Assembly (NCBI RefSeq): GCF_006543045.1
Contig: NZ_RBZW01000021.1
Coordinates: forward strand, 372,001-436,000
Origin: Salinadaptatus halalkaliphilus
Lineage (GTDB): Archaea; Halobacteriota; Halobacteria; Halobacteriales; Natrialbaceae
DNA: 64,000 nucleotides
Direction: 5' to 3'
Position numbers and translations under genes: made by a program
Notes under the pieces: model-generated
Told to the model about the DNA's origin: nothing
Database searches by the model: none
What the model saw: the letters and a program-made list of their open reading frames with translations, nothing else
Shown: positions 15,411 through 39,761 of the stretch, in pieces
Position numbering within the stretch: the first letter of the stretch is position 1
How the letters are laid out: every line of letters starts with the position of its first letter

Positions 15411-16742
15411 ATGAGTGACGACGTGAGCGACGGGGCGGACAACGCCGAGCGCGGGCTCGGAACGCGAAGCGTTCACGCCGGACAGGAACCCGATCCGGAG
15501 ACGGGTGCGGTCGCGCCGCCGATCTACCAGACGACCTCCTACGTCTTCGACGACGCCGAGACGGCCGCCGACCGCTACGCCCTCGAAGACGACGGCTACA
15601 TCTACTCGCGTATCGCCAACCCGACCGTACGAACCCTCGAGAAGCGCCTCGCCGACCTCGAGGGCGGAGCGGACGCGGTCGCGACGGCAAGCGGGATGGC
15701 GGCGCTCGATTCGGCCGTGTTGATCCTCGCCGAGGCGGGCGACAACGTCGTCTGTTCGACCGACACCTACGGCGGAACGACCGCTTACTTCTCGAAGACG
15801 GCCTCCCGGCGAAACATCGAACCGAAATTCGTGCCGACGCTCGAGTACGAGGCCTACGAGGAGGCCATCGACGAAGACACCGCGTTCGTCCACGTCGAGA
15901 CGATCGGCAACCCCTCGCTCGTGACGCCCGACTTCGAGCGCGTCGCCGAGATCGCCCACGACAACGGCGTTCCCCTCGTCGTCGACAACACGTTCGCGAC
16001 GCCCGCGCTGTGTCGCCCGCTCGAGCACGGCGCGGACGTCGTCTGGGAGTCGACGACCAAGTGGCTCCACGGCTCGGGCACGACCGTCGGTGGCGTCCTC
16101 GTCGACGGCGGATCCTTCCCCTGGGGCGAATACGGCTACGAGGAGATCGCCGGCCAGAACCACGCCTACCACGACGTGGACTTCTCGCGTGACTTCAGCG
16201 AGGCACCGCTGGCTGCGACCGCCCGATTCCGGTCGCTGCGCAGCCTCGGCAACCAGCAGTCGCCGTTCGACGCCTGGCACACGCTCCAGGGACTCGAGTC
16301 GATGCCCCTGCGCGTCGAGAAACACTGCGAGAACGCCGCCATCGTCGCCGAGTACCTCGCCGACCACGACGATGTCGCCTGGGTCACCCAGCCCAGCCTC
16401 GAGAGTCACCCGACTCACGACAACGCCTCGCGATATCTCGCGGATTACGGCGGCATGGTCGCGTTCGGCCTCGAGAGCGGTTACGAGGGCGGCAAGCGTT
16501 TCTGCGAGCGCGTCCAACTGGCCTCGTTTCTCGCCAACATCGGCGACGCGAAGACGCTCGTCATCCACCCCGCGAGCACGACCCACGGCCAGTTGACCCC
16601 CGCAGAACGCGAGGAGGCCGGCGTCACCGAGGATCTCGTGCGGATGTCGGTCGGTATCGAGGATCCCGAAGACATTCTGGCCGACCTCGAGCAGGCGATC
16701 GAGGGGGCGACGCGAGCGTGTCGAGCGGAGGAACCCACATGA
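15411..16742 (+). CDS. metY: O-acetylhomoserine sulfhydrylase (aminocarboxypropyltransferase)
   Basis: 443 residues, a Cys/Met-metabolism PLP enzyme. Recognised blocks are [20 protein letters not shown], the [10 protein letters not shown] motif, [23 protein letters not shown] and the PLP-lysine region [16 protein letters not shown]. MetY makes homocysteine from O-acetylhomoserine and sulfide. Its stop overlaps the ATG of metX by 4 bases (ATGA), and metX supplies the substrate, so the two form a compact two-step route to homocysteine. A cystathionine-type role is less likely given this linkage and the length. Confidence 0.94.
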
Positions 16743-17941
16743 CGACGGAACGAATCGATCTCGGCGAGTTTCAGTTCGTCTCGGGCGAGACGATTCCCAC
16801 CCTCGAGGTGGCCTACGAGACCTACGGCGAGTTTACGGGTGACAACGCCGTGCTCGTCTGTCACGCCCTGACCGGCAGTTCCCACGTCGCCCGCCGACCC
16901 GACACCGGCAGCGAGACGGCCGGCCAAGCACGGGCCTGGTGGGGCGATGTCGTCGGCCCAGGGAAAGCGATCGATACGACCGAATACTATGTCGTCTGTG
17001 CGAACGCCCCGGGGTCGTGTTACGGAACGACCGGCCCCTCGAGCGAGAACCCGGAAACGGGCGACCCCTACGGCACCGACTTTCCGCCGGTGACGGTGGG
17101 AGACTGGACCCGCGCCCAGCGACAGCTCCTCGACCGGCTCGGCGTCGGTCGCCTCCACGCGGTCGTCGGCGGCAGCGTCGGCGGCATGAACGTCCTGGAT
17201 TGGCTCCGGCGGTATCCCGACGACGTCGAGCGCGCGGGGGCCGTCGCCACCGCCGCCCGCCTCGATCCCCAGTGTCTCGCGCTGGATACGGTCGCCCGGC
17301 GCGCGATCACCAGCGATCCCAACTGGAACGACGGCCACTACTACGACGGCCCCGAACCTCAGGACGGGCTGGCTCGAGCGCGCCAGATCGGCCACGTGAT
17401 GTACCTCTCGAAGGCCTCGATGAGCCGCAAGTTCGGCCGGCGGTCGGCCGGCCGGGAGACGGTCCGTGAGGAGCCGCCGGACTCCGCCGCGGCCTTTTTC
17501 CCCTACCGGGAGGTCGAGTCGTATCTCGACTATCAGGCCGAGAAGTTCGTGGATCGCTTCGACGCGAACAGCTATCTCTACATGACCCGCGCGATGGACG
17601 ATTTCGACCTCTCGGCGGGCTACGAGAGCGACGCCGACGCGCTGGCGGCCTTCGAGGGCGAGTTGCTCGTCCTTTCGTTTACCGGCGACTGGCACTTTAC
17701 GGTCGAGCAGGCCGAAACGGTAGCCGACGCCGCACGCGAGGCCAACGTCGACATCGCCCATCACGTCGTCGAGTCGGACCACGGCCACGACGCCTTTCTC
17801 GTCGAACCCGAAAAAGTCGGGCCGCCGCTGTCGGAACTGCTATCGGCTGGACTCGCCGGCCGAACGATCACCGACACCGACTCGAGCGACGACGAAACCG
17901 AGTCGTTCGCACCGGTGCATACGAGTCTCTTCTCCACCTAA
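16739..17941 (+). CDS. metX: Homoserine O-acetyltransferase
   Basis: 400 residues from ATG at 16739, which overlaps the metY stop; the frame opens 7 codons earlier but the coupled start is preferred. An alpha/beta-hydrolase enzyme with the substrate loop HALTGSSHV, a nucleophile elbow GGSVGGMN, the acid in FTGDWHF, and the catalytic His in SDHGHDAFL. It moves an acetyl group from acetyl-CoA to homoserine. Length and motifs are normal, with an extra acidic tail of about 35 residues at the C end. Second gene of the metY-metX unit. Confidence 0.95.
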
Positions 17942-17969
17942 CAACGGCAGGACCCAACCCCAGAGACGC

Positions 17970-18335
17970 TCAGGAATCGTTCGGCGAATCGATCGGCGTG
18001 TACTGTTCTGCGATCGGCTGTCCCCGTCGTCGTTTCCCGATCCATCGCTGTACGTCTCGAGCGAACAGGTCCAGCCCGGTCGCGCGAGCGAACCGCCTCG
18101 AGGTCGGGGAGCGACAGAGTGCGATCAGCGTCCACATCGCGCCGGCCGCGAACGAGCCGGCCGCAGAGAAGGTCATGCCGAGCGTGAGGAAGGTGGCGGT
18201 GTAGACGAAGCCAATCGCCATCGAGGGGAGGCTCGTTCCCAGCGGCACTCGTGCACTCCCGTCGCGAAGCGTCGGCGCCAGAAAGACGACCGAAAGCCCG
18301 CTTCCGAACATGAATACGAAGTCTTGCCACATCAT
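17970..18335 (-). CDS. Haloarchaeal membrane protein, unknown function
   Basis: 121 residues. Three hydrophobic segments (about 6-22, 38-55 and 58-75) are followed by a basic, soluble C-terminal part (RRFARATGLDLFARDVQRWIG). The layout suggests a small inner-membrane protein with a cytoplasmic tail. No family was recognised with certainty. Convergent with metX, 28 bp apart. An ATG one codon later is equally possible. Confidence 0.75.
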   Translation of the reverse strand: MMWQDFVFMFGSGLSVVFLAPTLRDGSARVPLGTSLPSMAIGFVYTATFLTLGMTFSAAGSFAAGAMWTLIALCRSPTSRRFARATGLDLFARDVQRWIGKRRRGQPIAEQYTPIDSPNDS

Positions 18336-31682: not shown

Positions 31683-33227
31683 ATGTCACCGATTGGATCG
31701 GCGAAGACGATCGACGGGACGGGTGGTACCGATGACGCGACGGCCGGGCACGAGGACGACGTGCTGGCCACAGCACAGGGGGCCGTCGGCGTCGTCCACG
31801 AAACGTCGGCAGCGGTCGACGACGAACTCGAGGTGATCGATGATCTCGCGACCGGACAGGTCGAGGAGATGGTTGCCGTCGCGGAGGATGTCGCCGATCT
31901 CAGCGCGACGATCGAGGAAGTCGCCTCGAGCGCCACGGAGATGTCCGATCGAAGCGATCAGGCTGCATCGGCGGTCAGCGACGGGCAAACGGCGGCTTCG
32001 GAGGCCGCCTCGGCGATGGCTGACATCGCAGACATTGTCGAGACGATCGCCGACGATGTCGAGCAACTCGTCGACAGCGTCGAACGGATCGACGAGATCG
32101 TCGACATCATCTCGGGTATCGCCGACGAGACGAACCTGCTCGCACTGAACGCCTCGATTCAGGCTGCCCAGGCCGACGGTGACGGCGCCGGCTTCGGCGT
32201 CGTCGCCGGCGAGATCAAATCCCTGGCGAACCAGTCCCAGGAGCGAACCGCCGAGGTCGAAGGCGTCGTCGACGACATTACCGACGCGACCGACACGCTC
32301 TCGGCGCGCCTCGAGTCGGCGGTCGATGTCGCCGAGACGGGTGCCCGGCGAGCGGCCGACGCCGAGGCCGAACTCGGGACCGTCGCCGGGGCCGTCGGGG
32401 ATGTCGCGACGGGGCTCGACGATGTCTCGGCGGCGACGACCGAGGGTGCCGAGGCGAGTGAGCGGGTAGCCCACCGCTGTGAGGAGACCGCCGACGCGGC
32501 CGACGATATCGAGGCCGCCATCGACGACATCGACGACGAACGATACAGGCAGACGGATATGCTGGCGGAGATCGATCGTGCACTCGAGGTCGCGACGGTG
32601 GCCCGCCGCACTCGCCTGGCGAACGGGCCGGCGATACCCACGGGAGTAGCCGCCGTCGACGACGCTGGCGGCGTCCCACAGGGCTGTCGCGGCGTGGTGC
32701 ACGTCGCCGACGAGACGCCAGGCCGGGACGCCGATCGAACCATCGCGACCCTCGTCGGGACGGCTATCGAGAACGGGTACGCCGTCTCGCTGTCGCCGAC
32801 CGAATCGCTCGATCGGGGGAACCTCGAGCGCGCACTGTCCAGAGTGGGCATCGATCTCGAGGACGCCATCGCGAACGACTACCTGTTCGTCATCGATCTC
32901 TTCGATAGCTGGGACGACGGGACCAACGTCTTCGGCGTCGACCACCGGTCGCTCGGTGAGGTCAACGAGAGTATCGACCGACGGCGGGAGCGACCGTTGC
33001 TCGTGATCGGCAACATCGCCGGCGAATGTCACGCCTTCGGCGAACAGGCGACGCGCGAGACGACCTACGACAACGACGATGGCGTCCTCGAGGCGACGGA
33101 TACGGTGGTCAACGTCGTCGACGGAGCGTCGGTTCCGAACTCACTCGCCCAGTTCTACGTCGGCGCTGCGGATCAGGTGGTTCGCGTCGAGTCCGGCCCC
33201 GACGTGGACGTCTCTCGGTCGCCATAG
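31683..33227 (+). CDS. Soluble chemoreceptor-type signalling protein fused to a KaiC/MEDS-like domain
   Basis: 514 residues, no membrane helix. Residues about 20-305 form a long coiled coil typical of methyl-accepting chemotaxis proteins. The hairpin tip is at about 138-186 (IADETNLLALNASIQAAQADGDGAGFGVVAGEIKSLANQ split here as the CheA/CheW contact). Residues about 318-510 resemble RecA/KaiC-type DcmR/MEDS sensory domains (IPTGVAAVDDAGGVPQGC, LFVIDLFDSW, PLLVIGNIAG), but the P-loop position reads DETPGRDADRT and lacks GKT. So it should not bind ATP in the normal way. It may pass an internal signal to chemotaxis proteins. No che genes nearby. Confidence 0.85.
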   Translation: MSPIGSAKTIDGTGGTDDATAGHEDDVLATAQGAVGVVHETSAAVDDELEVIDDLATGQVEEMVAVAEDVADLSATIEEVASSATEMSDRSDQAASAVSDGQTAASEAASAMADIADIVETIADDVEQLVDSVERIDEIVDIISGIADETNLLALNASIQAAQADGDGAGFGVVAGEIKSLANQSQERTAEVEGVVDDITDATDTLSARLESAVDVAETGARRAADAEAELGTVAGAVGDVATGLDDVSAATTEGAEASERVAHRCEETADAADDIEAAIDDIDDERYRQTDMLAEIDRALEVATVARRTRLANGPAIPTGVAAVDDAGGVPQGCRGVVHVADETPGRDADRTIATLVGTAIENGYAVSLSPTESLDRGNLERALSRVGIDLEDAIANDYLFVIDLFDSWDDGTNVFGVDHRSLGEVNESIDRRRERPLLVIGNIAGECHAFGEQATRETTYDNDDGVLEATDTVVNVVDGASVPNSLAQFYVGAADQVVRVESGPDVDVSRSP

Positions 33228-34091: not shown

Positions 34092-35549
34092 ATGGGTGAT
34101 TCCGTAAGCCACAACCGAACTCGAACGGGGCTTCGGCAGGCTGACGCGATACTCGATGGGGGACTATTGCCCGCTTCTGGGACACTGATCAGGGGGCCAC
34201 CGGGAACGGGAAAAACGATTTTCGCTCTGCACTTTCTCGCGGACGGAGTACGATCGGGCGAGACGTGCCTGTATATCAACCTCGGCGAGCCCACTGCCTA
34301 TCTCCGCGATACCGCAGACAGTTTTGGACTGGACATCGATTCCGTCAATTTTCTCAATCTCTCCCCATCCGAGGCGGAGTTCCACGACGACCAGACGTAC
34401 GACCTTTTTCGGTCGGGTGAAGTAGAGAACTCGTCGCTGGTCGAGAACGTTCGTGACGAGGTCGATGCGATCGCCCCGGATCGGATCGTCATCGATCCGG
34501 TCACTGAACTTCGGTACCTGACCACCGACGACCACCAGTTTCGAACGCAGATCTTGGGGTTACTCGATTTTCTCAAGGCCGGGGGAGCGACCGTTCTATT
34601 GACTTCCCAGACCGCTGAGACGATTGCTGACGACGACCTCCAGTTTCTGGCCGATGCTGTCATCACCCTCGACCTTGAGGGGGACCGACGGACATTACGG
34701 ATTTCGAAGTTCCGCGGATCTGACACACAGCGTGGCCCTCACACGGTCACGATCACTGGCGACGGGATGTGCGTTTGGCCCAAACTCGTCCCCAACGATC
34801 ACAGTCAGGAATTCACCTCGGAGACGCTCTCATCGGGCGTGCCGGAACTCGACTCGCTGCTCCGTGGTGGCCTCACGACCGGGACAGTCACGTTTCTGAG
34901 CGGGCCGACCGGCGTCGGGAAGACAACTACCGGTCTCCAGTTCATGAAAGAAGCCGCCGGCCGTGGCCAGCGATCCGTCCTCTACAGCTTCGAGGAAAGC
35001 CGTTCGACCATGCTCGAGCGGGCGGAAGCCGTCAATATCCCAGTCGAAGCGATGCTCGAACGGGGCACACTTCGTATCGAGGAGATCGGCCCGGACGAGC
35101 TCACGGTCGACGAATTCACCCACAGGATCCGCCAGGAGGTCGAAGGGGAAGGATCGGAGATCATCATGATCGACGGTGTCAGCGGGTACGAACGAGCACT
35201 TCGCGGAAACGGAGACGACGCCACACAGCACCTGATCAAGATCGGTCGGTACCTTCGGAACATGGGTGTGACCGGCCTGGTCACAAACGAGGTTCATCGC
35301 ATCACCGGCGAGTTTCGAGCGACGGAACAGCAGATGAGCCACCTCGCAGACAACATCGTCGTTCTCCGTCACGTCGAGTACAAGGGGGAACTCCGCAAAG
35401 TGATCGGCGTCCTCAAGATGCGAACGAGTGACTTCGAGAACTGGCTCCGGGAGTTACAGATCACCGAACACGGGCTGACAGTCGGCGAGCCGATGTCCGA
35501 TCTCCGTGGCATCCTGACGGGGACACCCAACTGGGAGGATGACGGGTAA
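34092..35549 (+). CDS. Two-domain KaiC-family ATPase
   Basis: 485 residues from ATG at 34092. It has two RecA-like domains, each with its own Walker A: GPPGTGKT at 35-42 and GPTGVGKT at 271-278. Walker B strands appear as RIVIDPVTEL and EIIMIDGVSGY. KaiC-typical segments (LYINLGEPTAYL, LYSFEESRSTM, NEVHRITGEF) are clear. Cyanobacterial KaiC has the same double layout, but haloarchaeal relatives are used more widely in signalling. Its 3' end overlaps the first kinase by 11 bases and a second kinase follows, so the three are one operon. The output of the module is not known. Confidence 0.94.
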   Translation: MGDSVSHNRTRTGLRQADAILDGGLLPASGTLIRGPPGTGKTIFALHFLADGVRSGETCLYINLGEPTAYLRDTADSFGLDIDSVNFLNLSPSEAEFHDDQTYDLFRSGEVENSSLVENVRDEVDAIAPDRIVIDPVTELRYLTTDDHQFRTQILGLLDFLKAGGATVLLTSQTAETIADDDLQFLADAVITLDLEGDRRTLRISKFRGSDTQRGPHTVTITGDGMCVWPKLVPNDHSQEFTSETLSSGVPELDSLLRGGLTTGTVTFLSGPTGVGKTTTGLQFMKEAAGRGQRSVLYSFEESRSTMLERAEAVNIPVEAMLERGTLRIEEIGPDELTVDEFTHRIRQEVEGEGSEIIMIDGVSGYERALRGNGDDATQHLIKIGRYLRNMGVTGLVTNEVHRITGEFRATEQQMSHLADNIVVLRHVEYKGELRKVIGVLKMRTSDFENWLRELQITEHGLTVGEPMSDLRGILTGTPNWEDDG

Positions 35550-36657
35550 CTGTTCGGAGTCCGTGGAACGCAGCGAAAAATCGGTGGAAACCACCCGCGT
35601 CCTGCCGGCACTTGCAAACGCCGGCAACCAACGGGTCCTCCGCAAGTGGATGCGCGGTCAGGACGAATACGAGGTCGTTTCCGGAGGAGGGGACGCCCTC
35701 GCTACCGCCGAGTACGACCTGTGCGTTCTCGACGAGTGTACGTTTCGTCAGAATGTCAGTACAGTTCGTAACCGTCGAGAGGCCGAAAGCGGTATTCTGC
35801 CGGTATTGCTGGTCAGCTCCGCCTCGGAGTTCGAATCGATCGATTCCTGGACCCGCCATACGGTGGATCGGGACCTCTGGGACCTCGTCGACGAGATCCT
35901 GACGCCACCGATCGAACGCGTCGAACTGCGGAGACGACTCGAGAACCTCCGTCGACTCAGAGCGCAGTCGATCACGGTCGCACAGACGACCGAGCAACTC
36001 CTGCTTTTGAACCGGATCACCCGACACGACATCCAAAACGAGATGAACGTCATTACGGGGTGGGCGGGAGAACTCGAGGCCCACGTCGACGACTCCGGCC
36101 AGGAGATCTGCACGAGGATCCTCGATAGTAGTCGCAACGTCGTCGACCTGACCCGGGCCGTCCGGGAGTTCGTCGACATGCTCGAGATGGACGACGACCC
36201 GAAGCTGGACACGGTCGACCTCGAGGCCGCGCTCAGAGACGAGATCAGCAAACGGCGCTCGCTGTTCGAGGGTGCGGAATTCGTCGTCGACGGCGAGATC
36301 CCGTCCTTGCACGTCCGGGGGAACGAACTGCTTTCGTCGGTGTTCCGGAACCTGTTGAACAACGCGGTCCAGCACAACGATTCGGAAACGCCGCGTGTCA
36401 CAGTTACAGTCTCGGAACGGGAACGGAGCATCGTCGTTACGATCGGCGACAACGGGCCGGGTATTCCGCCGGATCGTCGAGACGCGGTACTCGGTCGCAC
36501 CGAAGCGGGAATCGATCATCCGAGTGCCGGGGTCGGGCTGTACCTCGTCGATACCCTCGTCGATGGTTACGGTGGCGGCGTTCGAATGACTGAGTCCGAC
36601 GAGGGCGGAACCGCCGTCGTCGTTACGCTCCCGGTGATTCGAGGTGGGAGACGGTGA
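35539..36657 (+). CDS. Histidine kinase with receiver-like N-terminal domain (first of KaiC operon)
   Basis: 372 residues. Residues about 20-130 look like a degenerate receiver (LANAGNQRVLRKWM, YDLCVLDECTF, GILPVLLVSSAS); the Asp in VLDECTF could be the acceptor. A helical linker precedes an unusual H box (ITRHDIQNEMNVITGW, His 163). The ATPase domain has FRNLLNNAVQHND, GDNGPGIP and SAGVGLYLVDTLV. It starts inside the KaiC gene and overlaps the next kinase by 4 bases. No PAS domain, so KaiC or the receiver domain probably provides input. The start could also be slightly downstream. Confidence 0.9.
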   Translation: MTGNCSESVERSEKSVETTRVLPALANAGNQRVLRKWMRGQDEYEVVSGGGDALATAEYDLCVLDECTFRQNVSTVRNRREAESGILPVLLVSSASEFESIDSWTRHTVDRDLWDLVDEILTPPIERVELRRRLENLRRLRAQSITVAQTTEQLLLLNRITRHDIQNEMNVITGWAGELEAHVDDSGQEICTRILDSSRNVVDLTRAVREFVDMLEMDDDPKLDTVDLEAALRDEISKRRSLFEGAEFVVDGEIPSLHVRGNELLSSVFRNLLNNAVQHNDSETPRVTVTVSERERSIVVTIGDNGPGIPPDRRDAVLGRTEAGIDHPSAGVGLYLVDTLVDGYGGGVRMTESDEGGTAVVVTLPVIRGGRR

Positions 36658-38144
36658 CCTCGGACGGGACGGGAACCGCCGACGACTTCGAGTCCGGATT
36701 GTCCTCACCCGCCGATTCCGCGACGATCTATCCACTCGTTACCGGGGACGGCAACCGGCGCGTCCTCCGGGAGTGGCTGTCGACACACGACATTTACCGG
36801 GTGGTCGACGCCGAGGTCGACCTCGAAGCGGCCGAGTTCGATCTCTGTATCGTCGATCAGGGTGGACTGAAACGACACGCGGACAAACTGAGACGGATCA
36901 AAGCCGAGACGAAACCGGTCCTCTTTCCGGTCCTGCTGTTGTTGCCAGAACGCCAGTCGGAGATTATCGAGACCGACCGGGGAGAGATCGCCGATAACGT
37001 GTTCGGGACGACGATCGACGAGATCGTCTCGCTCCCAATTCGGCAGGCCGAACTCGAATGGCGGATCCAGGCACTGCTTCGCCTTCGGGATCAGTCGCTT
37101 GCGTTACAAGACCGAACCGACCAACTCCACCAGTTCAAGAAGGCCGTCGAGGCGTCGGGCCACGCCGTCTATATCACCGACCCGGAGGGGACGATCGAGT
37201 ACGTCAACCCAGCCTTCGAGGAACTCACGGGCTACGATCGAGAGGAGGCGGTCGGTCGAACTCCGAACATCCTGCACTCAGGGGAAATGCCACCCAGCTA
37301 CTTCGAAGAGCTGTGGGAGACCGTGCTCTCGGGGGCAGTTTGGGAAGAGGAGGTGATCGACCGCCGAAAGGACGGCGAACTCTATACCGCCTATCAGACA
37401 ATCTCGCCGATCACGGACGGTGATGATGTCACGGCGCTCGTCGCGGTCCAGGTTGACATCACCGAACTCAAAGACGTACACCGACAGCTTCGCGTGGTCG
37501 ATCGGATCCTACGGCACAACCTCCGTAACGACCTGACGGTGATCCGTGGCCAAGCCGAACGGGTCCGCACTGACGTTTCGGGCGAACTGGCCGACGCCGC
37601 TGACGAGATGATCGGCCTCGTCGACGACTTGCTAACGACGAGTGAGAAGTCCCGGGCGATCACCGATGTCTTGAGCGAACAACCAGACAGCCAGCGAATC
37701 GATATTGCCGACGTGGTTCGCCGGATCGCCAGCGCGGCCGACGCCGACTCGAGTGCCCGTATCGACGTCGACGTCCCCGACCAGGCGATCGCCTCGGCAA
37801 CGACGAACGTCCACGAGGCGATCGAAGAACTGGTCAAAAATGCGATTAATCACAACGGAACCGAGTCACCGTCCGTCTCCCTCTCGGTCACGGTGAACGA
37901 CCAGAACGTCGTGGTAACGGTCGCCGACAACGGGCCCGGTATCCCGGAAATGGACCGTGCCGTCTTAGCGGCGGGTGACGCGATCGACGACCTCTATCAC
38001 GGGAGTGGACTCGGATTGTGGTTGGTCTATTGGATCGTTAACCGGTCCGGGGGATCGATCGCCGTTGGGGATATCGAACCACGCGGAACCAGGGTCACGG
38101 TTTCCCTTCCACGGGATGAGGTAACCACCCCAGCAACTCGGTAA
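36654..38144 (+). CDS. Receiver-like/PAS histidine kinase (second of KaiC operon)
   Basis: 496 residues from GTG at 36654, overlapping the previous stop (GTGA). The N-terminal 20-150 region is related to that of the upstream kinase (VTGDGNRRVLREWL, FDLCIVDQGGL, FPVLLLLPE). A PAS domain follows at about 162-280 (ITDPEGTIEYVNPAFEELTGY). The H box RILRHNLRNDL has His 288, and the ATPase domain shows IEELVKNAINHN, ADNGPGIP and GSGLGLWLVYWIV. The pair therefore shares the input-type domain but differs in H box and PAS content, suggesting different roles with one KaiC. Confidence 0.92.
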   Translation: MTSDGTGTADDFESGLSSPADSATIYPLVTGDGNRRVLREWLSTHDIYRVVDAEVDLEAAEFDLCIVDQGGLKRHADKLRRIKAETKPVLFPVLLLLPERQSEIIETDRGEIADNVFGTTIDEIVSLPIRQAELEWRIQALLRLRDQSLALQDRTDQLHQFKKAVEASGHAVYITDPEGTIEYVNPAFEELTGYDREEAVGRTPNILHSGEMPPSYFEELWETVLSGAVWEEEVIDRRKDGELYTAYQTISPITDGDDVTALVAVQVDITELKDVHRQLRVVDRILRHNLRNDLTVIRGQAERVRTDVSGELADAADEMIGLVDDLLTTSEKSRAITDVLSEQPDSQRIDIADVVRRIASAADADSSARIDVDVPDQAIASATTNVHEAIEELVKNAINHNGTESPSVSLSVTVNDQNVVVTVADNGPGIPEMDRAVLAAGDAIDDLYHGSGLGLWLVYWIVNRSGGSIAVGDIEPRGTRVTVSLPRDEVTTPATR

Positions 38145-38172: not shown

Positions 38173-38529
38173 TTAGAGAAACTCTCGGACCTCGGAGTAC
38201 CACATGTCGTGGTAGTCGACGTGGCCGACGCGACGTGCGATCGCGACGGCCAGGACGTGCCAGCAACACTCGGTGGGATCGTCCGGGTCGAGGTTGTACT
38301 CGCTGTCCTTGCAGGTACAGCCGCCGTCTTCGACGATGTACTCGTCGTCGTAGCCGACGACGATCGTGAAGTCCTTGTAGGTCTTGACGCGGTTCTCGCC
38401 GACGGCTTCGATGGCGCGAACCCCGCGGTCGCCGTGGAGTCGCGAGATCTGTTCGACGATTGCTGGCGTCAACTCTCCGGCCTCCTCGAGATCGGCCTGC
38501 CAGCGCTCGACGGGATTCGCGTCCGACAC
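38173..38529 (-). CDS. SWIM zinc-finger-like protein
   Basis: 118 residues. The C-terminal half has CTC (about residues 80-82) and, after a short insertion, CWH, which is the CxC...CxH pattern of SWIM zinc fingers. SWIM domains bind DNA or proteins and are found with Swi2/Snf2 ATPases or in Sws1-type recombination proteins; no such partner is adjacent. Convergent with the KaiC operon, 28 bp apart, and divergent from trm1. Known as a conserved haloarchaeal family, function unknown. Confidence 0.85.
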   Translation of the reverse strand: MSDANPVERWQADLEEAGELTPAIVEQISRLHGDRGVRAIEAVGENRVKTYKDFTIVVGYDDEYIVEDGGCTCKDSEYNLDPDDPTECCWHVLAVAIARRVGHVDYHDMWYSEVREFL

Positions 38530-38645
38530 GCCCGGACCTCTGTACCGAACTGTAAAATCGGTTTGGTTGTCGTGACGGCGCTCGAGTGTCCGTACCGACG
38601 CCGCGAGACCACACCGCTTTTCGCTCCCTACCGACGAGAGAGCAC

Positions 38646-39761
38646 ATGCGCGTCACCGAGGGCGGAGTCGACCTCGAGGTCCCCGGCGAACAGACCGAGG
38701 GGATCGAGGAGTCGGTCTTTTACAACCCGCGACAGGAGCTGAATCGGGATCTGACGATCGCGACGCTGCGGGCCTACCGCGAGCGCGAGGAGCGAGCGGA
38801 AACCTACCTCGACGCGATGACCGCAAGCGGGATTCGCGGGCTCCGGGCGGCCGCCGACGGCTGGGACGTCACCTGCTGTGATCTCGAGGAAGACGCCGTC
38901 TCGCTCGCGCGGGAGAACGTAGCGCGCAACGACCTAGACGCCGAGGTCGTCCACCGAAACGCGAACGCGCTCATGCACGAGGCGGTCTTCGACGTGATCG
39001 ACCTCGATCCCTACGGGACGCCGATGCCGTTCGCCGACGCGGCCGTCGCGAACTGCCGGGACCTGCTCTGTGTCACCGCGACCGATACCGCGCCGCTGTG
39101 TGGCGCCCACTTCAACAGCGGCGTCCGCTCGTACTCCGCGGTCCCACAGAACACCGACTACCATCCCGAGATGGGCGTTCGTATCCTCATCTCGGCGTTG
39201 GCTCGCAGCGGCGCCCGCTTCGACGTCGGCGTCGAACCCATTTTCACGCACGCGACCAGCCACTACGTCCGGACCTACCTCGAGCTCGAGCACAAACCGA
39301 CCAGCGCCGACGCCGCAATCGACGAACTCGGCCACATCTATCACTGCGAAGACTGCCAGTACCGGGACACCGATCCGGGCCTGATCGCGGACCCGCTCGA
39401 GACGTGCCCTCACTGCGACGGCACCCGACTGCTGACTGCCGGCCCGGTCTGGCTCGGGGCCGTCCATGACCCCGAATTCGTCGCTGCCGTCCGCGACGAG
39501 ATACCCTATCAGTTCGAGACGGCACCGACCGCGCGCGAACTCTGTGACACCCTCGCGGCCGAACTCGACGTTCCGACCCACTACGACCAGCACAAACTCT
39601 GTCGTAACTGGGGGCTGCCCGCCAACGCGATGGACGAGTTTTTGACCGACCTGCGAGCGGCCGGCTACGAGGCCTCCCGCGCCCACTACGGCGGGACGAC
39701 GTTCAAGACGACCGCCGACGTCGGGGAGATTCGCGAGGCGACGGCTGCGACCCTCGAGTAG
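38646..39761 (+). CDS. trm1: tRNA (guanine26-N2)-dimethyltransferase
   Basis: 371 residues from ATG at 38646; 20 upstream codons are open but not conserved. The SAM-binding motif [16 protein letters not shown], the catalytic DLDPYGTP, and a C-terminal zinc site ([10 protein letters not shown] ... CPHCDG) match archaeal Trm1. It adds two methyl groups to guanine 26 of many tRNAs. The first block [19 protein letters not shown] is also typical. Single gene followed by a possible terminator hairpin. Confidence 0.96.

Follow-up and report, generated by a model that had tools for sequence, protein, structure and literature searches.

A conserved gene module of KaiC and histidine kinases with a receiver-like N-terminal domain in Salinadaptatus halalkaliphilus and other Halobacteria

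By what route might an archaeal KaiC act on the rest of the cell? The question is raised by a three-gene operon of Salinadaptatus halalkaliphilus, found in a stretch of 64,000 nucleotides (contig NZ_RBZW01000021.1, positions 372,001 to 436,000 of the forward strand; hereafter the window), in which a KaiC family ATPase is followed by two histidine kinases, HK1 and HK2. Both kinases begin with a degenerate receiver-like domain, here given our own name pREC. KaiC and a pREC protein form a real, conserved signalling module; binding of KaiC to pREC and antagonism between the two kinases are predictions. The features of the operon, in window coordinates, are as follows.

34092-35549, plus strand: KaiC, double-domain KaiC family ATPase, 485 aa, P-loops in CI and CII
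35539-36657, plus strand: HK1, 372 aa; pREC (about aa 17-154), HisKA-type H box RHDIQNE, HATPase_c, no PAS
36654-38144, plus strand: HK2, 496 aa; pREC (about aa 23-160), one PAS, H box RHNLRND, HATPase_c
35575-36000, plus strand: pREC domain of HK1, receiver fold in the AlphaFold2 model
36711-37133, plus strand: pREC domain of HK2, homologous to that of HK1
35539-35549, plus strand: 11-nt overlap of KaiC and HK1, kept in two other genera
36654-36657, plus strand: 4-nt overlap of HK1 and HK2, GTGA here and ATGA in orthologs

The operon and the pREC domain

The three open reading frames (ORFs) and their overlaps of 11 and 4 bases are as described in a first-pass annotation of the window, and Pfam bears out its placement of a PAS domain on the second kinase only; PF06745 matches the KaiC ORF twice and HATPase_c matches both kinases. 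HK2 starts with GTG inside the stop codon of HK1, and the 11-nt overlap would couple translation of HK1 to that of KaiC. An ORF on the minus strand (38173-38529) and another on the plus strand (38586-39761) follow HK2, with which the transcription unit therefore most likely ends. Natrialba swarupiae and Natrarchaeobaculum sulfurireducens, the latter on plasmid pAArc1-02, have the three genes in identical order with identical overlaps, and this repetition in two other genera argues against a chance arrangement. Among 125 genomes of the family, these two are the only others with a full-length HK1 ortholog. (Note that the ortholog on the N. sulfurireducens plasmid (L110, NZ_CP024046.1, 5944-7065) is mis-called in the public annotation, where a gene is annotated for its last 166 codons only and a small minus-strand ORF over its 5' part.)

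The N-terminal domains of HK1 and HK2, proposed earlier to be related, are homologous (BLASTP, 45 of 140 residues identical (32%), E 5e-20), and the motifs quoted in support of this are present. Their description as receiver-like stands as regards the predicted fold, whereas the likeness is nearly invisible at the level of sequence: no Pfam family covers pREC, with a Response_reg match in one of 39 relatives (E 0.0076), and NCBIfam yielded no fitting family for the N-terminal domains, faint response-regulator matches only. Modelled with AlphaFold2 from 39 natural relatives, the HK1 domain alternates beta strands and alpha helices (pLDDT 87.6, pTM 0.83). Its best VIA-align 2 match had a Z score of 14.6 over 124 residues (rmsd 2.5), and the matches listed by Foldseek and VIA-align 2 were mostly receiver domains or response regulators. 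The model thus supports a (beta-alpha)5 receiver fold. KaiA and CikA chains were absent from the 50 fold-comparison matches listed, which is uninformative either way.

Regarding the residues of a working receiver, the switch Lys is replaced in all 39 pREC members and two acids at the end of beta1 are found in just three. The phospho-acceptor Asp (position 53) is kept in 29 members, both window kinases included, and lost in 10. With the Lys and the acidic pair for phosphotransfer missing, pREC would not function as a receiver. Its invariant residues are P76 and, around beta5 and alpha5, D106, P112, L118, R121, L125 and R129.

The KaiC protein carries a Walker A motif in each RecA-like half (GPPGTGKT and GPTGVGKT) and aligns to solved KaiCs over residues 8-480. 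It keeps the CII Glu pair (E301/E302) and a Ser at the Ser431 position (S416); the Thr432 position is His417 and the first CI Glu is replaced by Gly65. Among 56 KaiC relatives, the CII pair (E318/E319) is present in 55 and the Ser431 position is kept in 53, the Thr432 position is Tyr or His in most, and the first CI Glu is Gly in 23, the window protein included. Homology stops at residue 480 of 485, the counterpart of residue 495 in the 519-residue KaiC chains of cyanobacteria, so that the KaiA-binding C-terminal tail is absent. KaiB (PF07689) had no match in the genome of S. halalkaliphilus, with a positive Synechococcus control. These findings give no support to an oscillator of the KaiABC type; the protein is a possible ATP-state switch or phospho-switch.

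Linkage of KaiC and pREC

In named genomes, a search with a KaiC alignment yielded 38 loci (L041-L078). The next gene after KaiC encodes a pREC protein in all 35 haloarchaeal loci and in the locus of a bacterial metagenome-assembled genome (MAG; L051); two Nannocystis loci, with KaiCs of 27-28% identity, have no pREC gene next to KaiC. The 4.5-Mb genome of S. halalkaliphilus itself contains four pREC domains, all inside its three double-domain-KaiC operons: two in the window operon and one in each of the others.

For 59 genomes of Halobacteria, pREC and double-domain KaiC were searched separately and their positions then compared under a distance limit of 4 kb. Of 61 pREC genes, 53 lay within this limit of a double-domain KaiC, and 45 of 48 such KaiCs had a pREC gene (one downstream in 28, two in tandem in 8, divergent in 9). 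At the level of genomes, both are present in 38, pREC alone in 3, KaiC alone in 1 and neither in 17 (Fisher p 7e-11; note that the test treats related genomes as if they were independent, which they are not). For a pREC gene at a random place in a genome of 3.5 Mb, we estimate the chance of lying this near to KaiC at well below 1%. The gene-order check proposed with the first-pass annotation thus shows the same operon in two genera and, beyond them, a near-obligate association of KaiC with a pREC kinase across the Halobacteria. What had been proposed as a two-kinase module is a conserved unit, but its constant part is KaiC with one pREC protein. Locus L120 (G132 contig 2), with a double-domain KaiC and no pREC followed by a PAS kinase, a REC-HalX regulator and a REC-HalX-PAS kinase fusion, is a KaiC-kinase-regulator cluster of another make.

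The association extends to a few bacteria. The MAG SKW194 encodes a KaiC 46.7% identical to the window protein over its full length and, with a 1-nt overlap, a pREC-PAS-HD-GYP protein (PAS and HD-GYP named by reading the sequence); its relative G170 has the same arrangement. On a plasmid of the cyanobacterium Acaryochloris 'Moss Beach', a KaiC of 44% identity is divergent from a pREC kinase. The bacterial pREC-linked KaiCs group in a clade of their own. The enzyme behind pREC can thus be exchanged while KaiC and pREC persist.

Pairwise distances among 60 pREC kinases point the same way. The distances of KaiC correlate with those of pREC (r 0.82) more closely than with those of the kinase core of the same protein (r 0.59; difference 0.17-0.30 by bootstrap over loci), and the partial correlations with KaiC are 0.70 for pREC and -0.03 for the kinase core. 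This co-divergence is consistent with pREC being the KaiC-coupled part of proteins whose kinase cores were exchanged, though it is not proof of contact.

Two-kinase operons, H boxes and neighbouring genes

Tandem pREC kinases occur in Natrialba, Natrarchaeobaculum, Halorientalis, Halobacterium, Natronomonas, Haloferax larsenii, Halorubrum ezzemoulense and further genera; the two-kinase operon is an elaborated form, present in several families but in a minority of operons. The different H boxes of HK1 and HK2, already remarked on in the first-pass annotation, proved to be part of a systematic difference across the typed pREC kinases: those without PAS have HD or HE (20 of 20), whereas those with PAS have HN in 44 of 51 cases (five of these boxes read by eye). 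HK1, with HDIQN, fits the H-E/D-x-x-T/N pattern and matches HATPase_c (E 3e-19), with no HisKA match in Pfam. HK2, with HNLRN, has Asn in place of the acid at H+1 and does not fit the pattern; it matches HATPase_c (E 7e-19) and, below the curated cut-off, HisKA (E 4e-4). All 13 two-kinase operons in which both boxes were readable (the window, L039, L040, L043, L044, L045, L054, L112, L114, L130, L131, L133 and L134) combine one HD and one HN kinase, in either order. The two pREC domains of L134 are sisters in the tree and yet belong to opposite H-box types, and the HD members of L054 and L130 fall within an HN clade, which suggests several origins of the pairing. In L038, L069, L070 and L074 an HD partner kinase lacks pREC. 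The second pREC kinase of a tandem pair is broken or split in L129, L052 and L132, which suggests that some lineages have lost the HN partner. The observations of the first-pass annotation are confirmed, and its interpretation, in which one KaiC serves two kinases of different output, is partly supported.

In HisKA enzymes the acid at H+1 is required only for kinase activity and the Thr or Asn at +4 only for phosphatase activity (PMC3510030). By analogy with these bacterial enzymes, an HN..N box predicts an activity biased towards the phosphatase.

REC-HalX response regulators are candidate outputs of the module: such a gene precedes KaiC by 3 nt in L131 and by 60 nt in Halorussus vallis, while in L124 and Haladaptatus one adjoins a pREC kinase without KaiC.

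Upstream of the window operon, 751 nt from the KaiC ORF, a soluble protein of the methyl-accepting chemotaxis type is encoded on the plus strand (31683-33227). Its C-terminal region of about 210 aa has no assignment and is possibly an inactivated KaiC-like domain, the AlphaFold2 model (pLDDT 40) being too poor to judge by; relatives of the protein occur in 4 of 40 other genomes. Of 54 loci, 11 have a gene of the chemotaxis-receptor type no more than 4 kb from KaiC (L037, L038, L057, L058, L063, L069, L070, L072, L074, L132 and the window), a count inflated by related loci; all three KaiC operons of S. halalkaliphilus are among them. L038 also has, some 5.6 kb away from the C38 KaiC operon, a resolvase-like and a TnpB-like gene (15804-18144), identified from the sequence by reading as an IS607-type pair.

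A KaiB-free pathway, its alternatives and known Kai systems

The reading we prefer, with a probability of roughly 0.55, is a KaiB-free pathway from KaiC to a two-component system, in which pREC couples KaiC to the kinases, HK1 is a competent kinase, and HK2 is gated by its PAS domain and probably phosphatase-biased. The KaiC hexamer would act as an ATPase, probably autophosphorylating at the Ser431 equivalent, and pREC would be the part of the histidine kinases that docks to KaiC, not a phosphorylated receiver. Where two kinases are present, the state of KaiC would tip the balance between HK1, kinase-competent and bifunctional by its HD..N box, and HK2, whose HN..N box and PAS domain predict a weak kinase, competent as a phosphatase and under the control of a cue sensed by PAS. 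The two kinases would share one response regulator as their target, encoded elsewhere in the genome.

Several observations weigh against this reading. The window operon has no response regulator. The commonest form of the module is KaiC with one pREC kinase, often of HN type, and a lone HN kinase in many KaiC operons is a poor match for a pure phosphatase. The HD/HN pairs stem from few independent origins, which leaves the pairing a pattern of no more than moderate strength. The idea that HN is specific to the module was rejected, as HN kinases without pREC are encoded by S. halalkaliphilus itself, where HN kinases are a minority (five of the typed kinases, two of these five being pREC kinases). 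Eight of the 61 pREC genes in the Halobacteria lie away from any double-domain KaiC, and pREC may therefore have other partners. Co-divergence is in part expected from shared inheritance in one operon, and gene linkage also fits co-expression without contact.

The pathway might run in the reverse direction, the kinases being the input: pREC would dock to KaiC and the state of the kinase or its PAS domain would set the ATPase or phosphorylation of KaiC, as KaiA and CikA do in cyanobacteria, while KaiC acts on other targets. Receiver-like domains of KaiA, KaiA3 and CikA do modulate the clock (PMC12632262, PMC11372060), a PAS domain on some kinases only suits sensing, the lack of a response regulator in the window operon agrees with it, and CirA, another haloarchaeal KaiC, affects motility and cell shape (PMC13286277). 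We nevertheless consider it unlikely, as intact ATP-binding domains and diversified H boxes of the kinases suit output, and the bacterial member has an effector enzyme, HD-GYP, after pREC. Still less probable is that KaiC and the kinases merely belong to the same response without contact, pREC regulating its own kinase in cis as in ShkA and CikA. Pseudo-receivers are able to inhibit their own kinase (PMC12632262), and linkage alone cannot tell this from binding; however, kinases away from KaiC hardly ever carry pREC, and the link of pREC with KaiC persists as the kinase core changes or becomes HD-GYP, whereas an intramolecular partner should behave in the opposite way. A phosphorelay within the operon, with pREC as a working receiver phosphorylated by the other kinase, is very improbable and was dropped as the leading view, since catalytic receiver residues are missing: the receiver fold and the Asp kept in most members, both window kinases included, are set against a switch Lys replaced throughout, an acidic pair lost in most members, an Asp lost in the remainder and the predominance of single-kinase operons.

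The KaiB-free pathway resembles the cyanobacterial Kai output, in which SasA and CikA act oppositely on one response regulator, RpaA (PMC5520375), in that a double-ring KaiC is linked to two histidine kinases; it differs in the lack of KaiB from the genome and of the KaiA-binding tail from KaiC. SasA, to which the first-pass annotation had compared the kinases, is not the apt parallel, its N-terminal domain being KaiB-like: according to Pfam, HK1 and HK2 have no such thioredoxin-fold domain, and that of HK1 models as a receiver fold. The pseudo-receiver of CikA, which binds KaiB, or that of KaiA (PMC12632262) is the better structural parallel, although it is C-terminal in CikA and N-terminal in HK1 and HK2, on which Pfam finds no GAF domain. 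KaiA3 has a receiver N-terminal domain, and kaiA3 adjoins kaiB3 and usually kaiC3 (PMC11372060). A receiver-like N-terminal domain in a partner of KaiC is thus common to KaiA, KaiA3 and pREC proteins; there it is followed by the KaiA four-helix domain and here by a kinase or HD-GYP, and no sequence relation between them is shown.

Regarding novelty, an operon of KaiC with two receiver-like kinases had been thought functionally undescribed. KaiC beside a histidine kinase was already known: passages of PMC3941300 place cirC, a double-domain KaiC gene of Haloferax volcanii, next to the kinase gene fixL, and PMC5520375 cites a histidine kinase in the kaiBC operon of Rhodobacter sphaeroides, likewise co-operonic with KaiC, where KaiB is present. 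The cirC/fixL pair is possibly the same module, although those passages describe neither a receiver-like domain nor a two-kinase form. The claim holds as far as a keyword search of the census in PMC5847659 reaches, which gave REC-PAS-HisKA proteins and KaiC-REC fusions and no operon of KaiC with a receiver-like kinase; prior mention of part of the pattern in the literature is possible. That archaeal KaiC proteins are signalling hubs is a general proposal of Makarova 2017, as cited in PMC5847659.

In archaea the SasA/RpaA-type output path of KaiC is reported to be essentially missing, no RpaA being known there (PMC5520375), and a 2025 review states that its authors are aware of no function published for an archaeal pseudo-receiver (PMC12632262). 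A tentative extension, which we put forward with reserve as rather doubtful, is that KaiC and pREC form an ancient signalling or timing unit, independent of KaiA and KaiB, in archaea and some bacteria, in which one ring drives an opposed HD kinase and HN phosphatase via pREC and through which archaeal KaiC would have its output. KaiC proteins are common in archaea, and pREC is a direct, testable candidate for the connector from KaiC to the rest of the cell, by virtue of a near-constant linkage with KaiC that is kept while the enzyme behind pREC changes; the idea of a kinase and a phosphatase is likewise open to test, owing to the opposed H-box pairs.

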